From Marivirga atlantica (GTDB taxonomy: Bacteria; Bacteroidota; Bacteroidia; Cytophagales; Cyclobacteriaceae): DNA of 64,000 bases. Positions 45,367-46,088 of this stretch are shown here, in pieces (the stretch's first letter is position 1; each line of letters opens with the position of its first letter). The position numbers and the translations under genes are program-made. The stretch is taken from positions 1 to 64,000 of the forward strand of contig NZ_JAERQG010000001.1 in assembly GCF_016734805.1 (NCBI RefSeq), written 5' to 3'. Under the pieces are notes generated by a model, which was not told the origin of the DNA, made no database searches, and was given only the letters and a program-made list of their open reading frames with translations.

Positions 45367-45398
45367 TTTGCAAAATATTAAACCACCTGCTATGTTTG
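45367..45398 (+). promoter_or_regulatory. promoter of tRNA-Asn
   Basis: TTTG (45367-45370), 20-nt spacer, TATGTTTG (45391-45398): an exact Bacteroidota-type promoter ending 18 nt before the tRNA. Confidence 0.8.
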
Positions 45399-45416: not shown

Positions 45417-45493
45417 TCCTCTTTAGCTCAGTTGGTTAGAGCATCTGACTGTTAATCAGAGGGTCCTTGGTTCGAGCCCAAGAAGAGGAGCCA
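45417..45493 (+). tRNA. tRNA-Asn (GTT anticodon)
   Basis: 77 nt including an encoded CCA. Acceptor TCCTCTT / AAGAGGA with discriminator G, D-arm AGCTCAGTTGGTTAGAGC, anticodon stem TCTGA / TCAGA with loop CTGTTAA (anticodon GTT), T-arm CTTGG TTCGAGC CCAAG. Part of its T-arm and its 3' end recur downstream of the adjacent GIY-YIG gene. Confidence 0.96.
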
Positions 45494-45544
45494 AAAAGCC
45501 ATCAAGTCTACGATTTGATGGCTTTTTTTTATTTCCACAACATG
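45464..45544. repeat. direct repeat unit 1: tRNA-Asn 3' end, terminator, GIY-YIG start
   Basis: From the T-arm (TCCTTGGTT) through the CCA end, terminator hairpin and the first bases of the GIY-YIG gene. Repeated at 45821-45916 with few differences apart from a 24-bp palindrome inserted in the T-loop copy. Confidence 0.88.
45497..45530 (+). terminator. terminator of tRNA-Asn
   Basis: AGCCATCAA / TTGATGGCT (9-bp stem, 9-nt loop) followed by eight T, right after the CCA end. Confidence 0.88.
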
Positions 45545-45820
45545 CATTACGTCTACATCCTTTTCTCACAAAAGCTTAATAAATTCTATATAGGGTATAC
45601 TGCCGACTTGAATCAAAGAATAGAATACCATCAAATGGCTCTAAAAGGTAAATTCACGGCAGCTGCAAATGACTGGGAAGTTTACATAACAATTGAATGC
45701 TCATCAAAAAAGCACGCGCTTGCTATTGAAAGATATATCAAACATATGAAAAGCAAAAAATACATTCAAAACTTAAAACAATTCCCTGAAATGAAGGAAA
45801 AACTCCTTCTCAGATATTAA
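45542..45820 (+). CDS. GIY-YIG nuclease family protein (small, tRNA-linked)
   Basis: 92 residues from MHYVYILFSQKLNKFYIGYT; a longer in-frame reading would start inside tRNA-Asn and is rejected. The GIY-like motif is YVYIL, the YIG motif is YIGYT, with Arg in LNQRIEYHQ and the catalytic Glu in ALAIERYIKHMKS. Such one-domain proteins are common near tRNA genes in Bacteroidota and may act as small homing-type or repair endonucleases. It has no visible promoter of its own and begins 12 nt after the tRNA terminator T-run. Its stop is followed immediately by a second copy of the tRNA 3' end. Confidence 0.85.
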   Translation: MHYVYILFSQKLNKFYIGYTADLNQRIEYHQMALKGKFTAAANDWEVYITIECSSKKHALAIERYIKHMKSKKYIQNLKQFPEMKEKLLLRY

Positions 45821-45828
45821 TCCTTGGT

Positions 45829-45852
45829 TTGTACCGATAGCTATCGGTACAA
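45829..45852. repeat. 24-bp perfect palindrome inside the copied T-loop
   Basis: Half-site TTGTACCGATAG, perfectly self-complementary. It replaces the six bases CGAGCC of the original tRNA T-loop region. It may be a short interspersed palindrome of this lineage; I noticed no second copy in the window. Confidence 0.8.
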
Positions 45853-45868
45853 GAAGAGGAGCCAAAAA

Positions 45869-45902
45869 AGCCATCAAGTCTACTATTTGATGGCTTTTTT
45901 TT
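45869..45902 (+). terminator. second copy of the tRNA-Asn terminator
   Basis: AGCCATCAA / TTGATGGCT with one loop change and a T-run, duplicated from 45497-45530. It now terminates the GIY-YIG transcript. Confidence 0.82.
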
Positions 45903-45913
45903 ATTTCTACAAA

Positions 45914-46075
45914 ATGGACCGGGTCAACATTCATTCCTCACAAAAGCTTAATAAATTCTATTCATGACATACTGCTGATTAGAATCAAAGCAAGCAACAT
46001 CATCCAGCTGGATATTTGCTTATTAAAACATGAAATAAAGCGGCTCATTAAAACAAAAAGGGAGTACATTAAAAT
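45914..46075 (+). pseudogene. decayed tandem copy of the GIY-YIG gene
   Basis: An ATG at 45914 opens a frame matching the intact gene (SQKLNKFY shared exactly) but hits TGA at 45965 where the intact protein has IGYT. Nucleotide similarity continues (ACTGC.GA..AGAATCAAAG) and a shortened 3' remnant encoding an IKRLIKTKREYI-like stretch recalls IERYIKHMKSKKYI. Most of the middle is deleted. It is clearly non-functional. Confidence 0.75.
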
Positions 46076-46088
46076 GCACTCCCTTTTT
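46055..46088 (-). terminator. terminator of the 75-aa hypothetical gene
   Basis: AAAAAGGGAGT / ACTCCCTTTTT (11-bp perfect stem, 12-nt loop), T-run on the minus strand, 25 bp past the stop. Confidence 0.8.

Follow-up and report, generated by a model that had tools for sequence, protein, structure and literature searches.

Duplication of a tRNA 3' end is the classic mark of integrative elements, and the att sites used by integrases in tRNA genes favour the anticodon arm and the T-arm. In fungal mitochondria, free-standing homing endonuclease genes (HEGs) occur with duplicated ends of their host genes, as for atp6 of Allomyces. HEGs accompanied by truncated gene copies are also described in PMC6506933. 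SegB of the T-even phages is a free-standing GIY-YIG homing endonuclease encoded beside tRNAs, which is thought to cut in tRNA-containing sequence and drives the tandem amplification of tRNA-Tyr together with segB by recombination between short repeats (PMC13096335). A further system is formed by the RAYTs, tyrosine transposases that serve GTAG REPs, while the CGTC-tagged REPs had no dedicated transposase according to a 2013 survey (PMC3733652).

The locus described here lies in a 64,000-nt stretch of the Marivirga atlantica genome (the window) and carries a repeated unit on the forward strand. The first gene is an intact tRNA-Asn (gtt) at 45417–45493 (called by ARAGORN; Rfam tRNA, 69.7 bits). 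A likely promoter, read from the sequence, is located at 45367–45398 (+) and is composed of TTTG (45367–45370), 20 nt, and TATGTTTG (45391–45398), which we take to be a putative match to the TTTG / TAnnTTTG promoter pattern of Bacteroidota. The tRNA is followed by its intrinsic terminator, with a 16-bp stem and a T run (45493–45527, +), and by an intact gene encoding a single-domain GIY-YIG nuclease of 92 aa (45542–45820, +; PF01541, E=8e-15). The TAA stop of this gene (45818–45820) abuts TCCTTGGTT (45821–45829) without a gap, and this is the start of a defective tRNA-Asn 3' end, or psi-tRNA (45821–45864, +), that continues through a palindrome to CAAGAAGAGGAGCCA. The second copy of the tRNA-Asn terminator (45864–45900, +) leads to a decayed second GIY-YIG gene (45914–46009, +). 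Its frame runs for 17 codons from the ATG at 45914 to a TGA at 45965–45967 and contains a further in-frame stop; similarity extends past the stops to 46009, and the decayed copy matches the protein at 55% over residues 4–32 with two stops. A terminator-like inverted repeat without assigned strand (46055–46088) forms the downstream limit of the region. Two repeat families are present at the locus, one of 140 nt (81% identity, offset 372) and one of 19 nt (100% identity, offset 371). The original prediction is borne out in that tRNA 3' end, terminator and nuclease are repeated as a unit, which is tied to a tRNA site, mobile in appearance and decayed in its distal copy. Rfam identified no intron family at the locus, and the nuclease gene lies outside the tRNA, 3' of the terminator, which sets it apart from HEGs encoded in group I or II introns.

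Two parts of the original prediction require revision. The first is that each unit rebuilds the tRNA end. The T-loop of the psi-tRNA (tRNA nt 57–62, the insert lying between nt 56 and 62) is swapped for the 20-nt TGTACCGATAGCTATCGGTA (45830–45849), part of the perfect 24-nt palindrome TTGTACCGATAGCTATCGGTACAA (45829–45852, no strand assigned), and neither ARAGORN nor Rfam calls a tRNA here. Since the palindrome takes the place of the T-loop, the second tRNA-Asn end is a dead copy and only one copy of the tRNA is intact. The second is that two successive insertions took place; congeners hold tandem arrays of near-identical units, which makes local tandem amplification a simpler account of how the second unit arose. 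In the stretch from the tRNA to the nuclease ORF, a sigma-70-type scan, whose model does not cover Bacteroidota promoters, identified no promoter-like sites above shuffled expectation. Expression of the nuclease by read-through of the tRNA terminator is plausible.

The nuclease carries the catalytic Tyr, Tyr, Arg and Glu residues of the GIY-YIG superfamily and scores above the PF01541 cut-off. Residues Y16, G18, R26, H30, E63 and K67 are invariant across 33 relatives and Y5 is nearly so. The AlphaFold2 model of the window protein (pLDDT 94) has UPF0213 and SLX1 as its nearest solved structures (1zg2, 1ywl, 7cq2, 4xlg). This UPF0213/SLX1 branch is the closest in sequence and fold, and the protein is small and single-domain like UPF0213 members, with BH0048 as the best match by profile (E=1e-16) and at Foldseek rank 1. 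The UPF0213 entries retrieved have no tRNA nesting or mobility attached to them, and SLX1 works with SLX4 on branched DNA according to the titles of the structure entries. Clear homology to phage Seg proteins beyond the GIY-YIG core was not found, which places the protein outside the SegB family, and as a GIY-YIG protein it is distinct from the tyrosine (HuH) transposases of the RAYT type. Matches to PHROG homing endonucleases are marginal (E~0.01). The protein is conserved and looks active, while single copies decay, the second copy of the window included.

SegB is the closest experimental precedent; both systems combine a GIY-YIG nuclease beside tRNAs with tandem amplification and a wide range of tRNA isotypes. 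However, SegB is a phage gene, whereas the genes of the tRNA units are chromosomal, single-domain and UPF0213-like, with one lineage per tRNA type and a duplicated tRNA end that bears a hairpin. The fungal mitochondrial HEGs resemble the units in having a nuclease gene beside a host gene and a broken duplicate of the gene end, but they reside in organelle protein genes and feature neither hairpin substitution nor clades specific to a tRNA type. A literature search, subscription papers and preprints aside, turned up no account of bacterial GIY-YIG genes nested at tRNAs or of such genes associated with REPs.

The window protein matches seven further places in its own genome. GIY-YIG genes are found 3' of tRNA-Asn, Asp, His, Val and Leu (five including that of the window) and one is found 3' of the tmRNA. 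Each of the five tRNA loci shows a repeat of the tRNA 3' end and terminator after the nuclease, and the T-arm region of every repeat holds a palindrome, for instance TCCCGATGAATCGGGA at Asp, TACCGAAAGCTTTCGGTA at Val and longer hairpins at His and Leu; at the tmRNA locus of this genome no repeat of the 3' end follows the nuclease. Looking through the genome for this ORF behind tRNA 3' ends, as suggested at the outset, thus gave a strongly positive result with four further tRNA genes. A chance repeat is ruled out, as the layout recurs at these four tRNA genes and at dozens of loci elsewhere. A repeat lacking the nuclease had been named as an outcome that would speak against the unit, and it is confined to psi-tRNA-only copies, which form a minority. 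Such copies with a hairpin and no nuclease are located upstream of tRNA-Val (L273 and L276) and upstream of tRNA-Asp (L267; G000:C7:694188), and are possibly non-autonomous units.

Two classes of unit are observed. A unit of the 3' class, which is the commoner one, opens with a promoter and the intact tRNA with its terminator; the nuclease follows, mostly 30–90 nt downstream, and after it come a hairpin-bearing tRNA end and another terminator. The 5' class (Ser, Leu-cag, Pro-cgg and some Arg) begins with a hairpin-bearing tRNA followed by the nuclease, and the intact tRNA comes last and in some cases overlaps the stop of the nuclease. Of the 74 distinct units with an upstream tRNA, 58 have a further copy of the tRNA 3' end behind the nuclease, and a hairpin was found in 50. 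Units at Val, Lys, Ala and Arg, and those at Asn in congeners, have the hairpin in place of the anticodon arm. It takes the place of the T-arm at Glu, Asp and Thr and in the Asn unit of the window, and of the region between the anticodon and the variable loop at Met. The target-like arm is replaced in the psi-tRNA and still present in the intact tRNA. End-to-end pairing of at least 6 of 7 pairs was found in 30 of 78 inserts within loci, versus 11% for ends taken from different loci, the inserts being delimited only by tRNA identity on both sides. Hairpins at the same position keep their pairing with differing stem sequences, e.g. TCCGCT/AGCGGA and TCCGTC/GACGGA in Met units. The architecture of a nuclease with an extra tRNA copy in which a hairpin replaces an arm is secure.

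This retained pairing would also fit a role at the RNA level. The tRNA with the hairpin would then be a functional tRNA-like RNA, serving as decoy, stabiliser or processing signal, and the protein would act on the tRNA or its transcript, with stress, phage defence or a toxin-antitoxin-like pair as possible settings. Psi-tRNAs of nearly full length exist (L088, L150), and the coding sequence is conserved. The reading is nonetheless improbable: many psi-tRNAs, that of the window among them, are a mere 3' fragment, presence is patchy between congeners, and the GIY-YIG enzymes of known activity are, to our knowledge, DNA cutters.

Of 39 relatives, 24 gave matches in a profile search, at approximately 115 places in all, some of which form tandem runs at constant spacing. 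In an evenly drawn sample of the phylum, matches with E≤1e-8 occur in 92 of 148 genomes and 60 of 83 genera, with up to 22 matches per genome and one array of about nine; the sampled genomes are not independent and many loci are cut by contig ends. A same-strand tRNA lies within 250 nt at 25 of the 27 best-per-genome Bacteroidota loci with enough flank (the full set of 30 consists of 25 tRNA-adjacent loci, three cut by contig ends and two not adjacent). Among the relatives, 47 of 57 loci with enough flank are near a tRNA, tmRNA included. Rfam analysis of the loci without a tRNA gained a tmRNA and two tRNAs and nothing more. A GIY-YIG subclade is located approximately 220–640 nt downstream of tmRNA in three genera (L084, L149, L170), where the tmRNA 3' end is not obviously repeated. 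A scan of named genomes with the single protein identified five distant loci, of which one belongs to Niabella and the other four to Patescibacteria, and a tRNA is close by at four of the five (Niabella and three Patescibacteria). The nucleases beside tRNA genes in Patescibacteria (L254, L255, L257) belong to Levybacteria and Paceibacterota, and L255 has hairpins upstream of a tRNA-Ser.

A duplicated tRNA 3' end and the same favoured arms are shared with integrase att sites, and the duplication is the signature expected of an att-site remnant left by an integrative element (tyrosine integrase, prophage or ICE). Such an origin is highly improbable for these units. A whole unit spans approximately 320–400 nt with the nuclease as its sole gene and no cargo, no integrase gene or remnant was found between the tRNA copies, the same gene recurs at dozens of sites, and the 5' class places the broken copy upstream.

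Phylogenetic analysis, built on few columns, separates a tRNA-type clade (76 rows) from a sister clade without tRNAs (29 rows) with support of 99/95; none of the 29 sister-clade loci has a same-strand tRNA within 250 nt. Within the tRNA type, the users of Val, Met, Glu and tmRNA each form clades, and the tRNA-identity label changes 16 times on the tree, compared with a minimum of 25 and a mean of 29.5 for shuffled labels. Nuclease lineage and insertion site are thus paired site-specifically, as is expected of homing endonucleases. Of ten congeners, four carry a unit at the orthologous tRNA-Asn site and six have this site empty, and the nuclease of the window is not sister to the other tRNA-Asn occupants, which indicates that the site was invaded at least twice. 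Wherever the site is occupied, the repeated tRNA end and terminator agree with the tRNA of that genome, species-specific differences included, so the copies are locally derived or homogenised with it. In one sister genome the nuclease is a fusion of a kind that recombination between tandem units could produce. A clean empty site was not found in any very close pair; the one near pair, from another genus (G063 and G190), has an assembly gap, a run of N, at this position. In the anticodon stem of the tRNA-Asn at these sites (L175–L184), CTGAC...TCAG is present in the occupied and TTGAC...TCAA in five of the six empty alleles, a small sample with shared ancestry.

Values of dN/dS between species are mostly 0.04–0.2 and higher only for very close pairs, and the coding sequence of the nuclease is under purifying selection. 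Together with the age of the Val and Met clades, which are old within the genus, this selection would suit a non-mobile accessory gene following tRNAs, to which neutral tandem duplication and independent REP-type insertions were added. We consider this explanation unlikely, because it leaves unaccounted for the many tRNA types, the tRNA 3' end repeated at almost every site, the hairpins placed in arms, and the two unrelated nucleases at orthologous tRNA-Asn genes.

On balance, the units are probably minimal mobile, homing-like GIY-YIG elements that live on tRNA genes and always leave one tRNA intact, and they look like an undescribed kind of selfish DNA. Presence and absence at orthologous sites, with re-invasion, bear only indirectly on whether the nuclease would act as a homing endonuclease, cutting an unoccupied allele and being copied into it. 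In the proposed mechanism, read-through of the tRNA transcript would supply nuclease at a low level, and the nuclease would cut the DNA of its own tRNA gene within one of the arms or close to it. The unoccupied allele would be repaired from the occupied one through the shared tRNA halves, such that the nuclease is copied in and one whole tRNA is left. The intact tRNA copy would keep the host alive, and the hairpin, by removing an arm, would make the second copy neither a tRNA nor a target. Repeated cutting and repeated tRNA segments may then, through unequal recombination, have generated the tandem arrays observed, which hold two to nine near-identical units (about nine at most), after which copies would decay, as in the window.

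Several points stand against homing. The presumed target is still present in the intact tRNA next to the nuclease. The psi-tRNA and the terminator match the local tRNA, which indicates that they derive from this gene or have been homogenised with it and were not brought in with the unit. For the window protein there is no phage match at E≤1e-3 and no plasmid copy was found. The long-lasting, strong purifying selection exceeds the need of a purely selfish element, and a host function could exist. If the homing-like reading is correct, these would be among the smallest autonomous selfish elements (<400 bp), residing on essential tRNA genes in most sampled Bacteroidota genera and so far annotated just as scattered 'GIY-YIG nuclease' genes. 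They would serve as a test bed for the exploitation of an essential gene that is left functional, and would supply many natural nucleases specific to tRNA genes. Tandem fragments that resemble tRNAs, and breaks in assemblies at tRNA loci, would also be explained.

The GIY-YIG genes of the sister clade are UPF0213-like and have CGTC-tagged REP palindromes (cgtcATCCTCGGGCTTGACCCGAGGATcca and similar sequences) next to them, in many cases on either flank. Their hosts are Bacteroidota, Sinorhizobium, Shinella, Sphingobium, Novosphingobium, Azospirillum, Rhizobium and Photobacterium (L079, L105, L145, L153, L308–L315), and this genome has such a locus at G000:C6:1230999–1231285 (L171, L007). Here, three of 16 strict CGTC-palindrome sites lie within approximately 600 nt of a sister-clade gene. 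The sister-clade nuclease is a candidate mobility enzyme for the CGTC REPs, and this link would make the open question of what mobilises them directly testable.

The tRNA units also resemble the REP/RAYT and CGTC-tagged REP systems (PMC3733652) in their small nuclease gene with flanking palindromes, their paired or tandem units and the solo palindromes elsewhere; they differ from the RAYT system in replacing tRNA arms and tracking tRNA identity. The position of the sister clade among CGTC-tagged palindromes in Bacteroidota suggests a hairpin-directed, REP-like mode as the chief rival to homing. The nuclease would then recognise and cut palindromic hairpins or cruciforms, as SLX1-type relatives do, and the element would move in the manner of RAYT/REP, without sequence-specific homing; the hairpin of the psi-tRNA would be the active site or end of the element itself, and tRNA arms would be colonised for the hairpins that they extrude. 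CGTC-tagged palindromes are present at all eight sister-clade plasmid loci examined (Alphaproteobacteria, Photobacterium), on both flanks in most, a shared start of TCCC or TCCG occurs in 25 of 78 inserts of unrelated psi-tRNAs, psi-tRNA-only copies occur, and of the nearest structures, UPF0213 and SLX1, the latter is a structure-specific nuclease. This rival is nevertheless doubtful, as the tRNA-specific clades imply that tRNA identity is recognised beyond the hairpin alone, some psi-tRNAs lack a clear hairpin, and hairpin sequences vary freely between loci.

A broader proposal, advanced tentatively and with the balance somewhat against it, unites both branches in an entirely new class of mobile DNA in bacteria, based on UPF0213-like, hairpin-acting nucleases. 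One branch would spread CGTC REPs and the other would colonise tRNA and tmRNA genes from Bacteroidota to Patescibacteria, with the hairpin-substituted tRNA copy as the second end of the tRNA branch. The palindrome was also considered as a high-copy dispersed repeat of the genome and rejected, as TCCCGN(2-8)CGGGA occurs at 18 sites against 10 for the control. In the same genome, the palindromes TCCCGATAGCTATCGGGA and TCCCGATCGCTATCGGGA are found at G000:C8:47419–47671 (L271, L272), a region that reads like an RNase P RNA gene with palindromes as if placed in the hairpin loops of a structured RNA.
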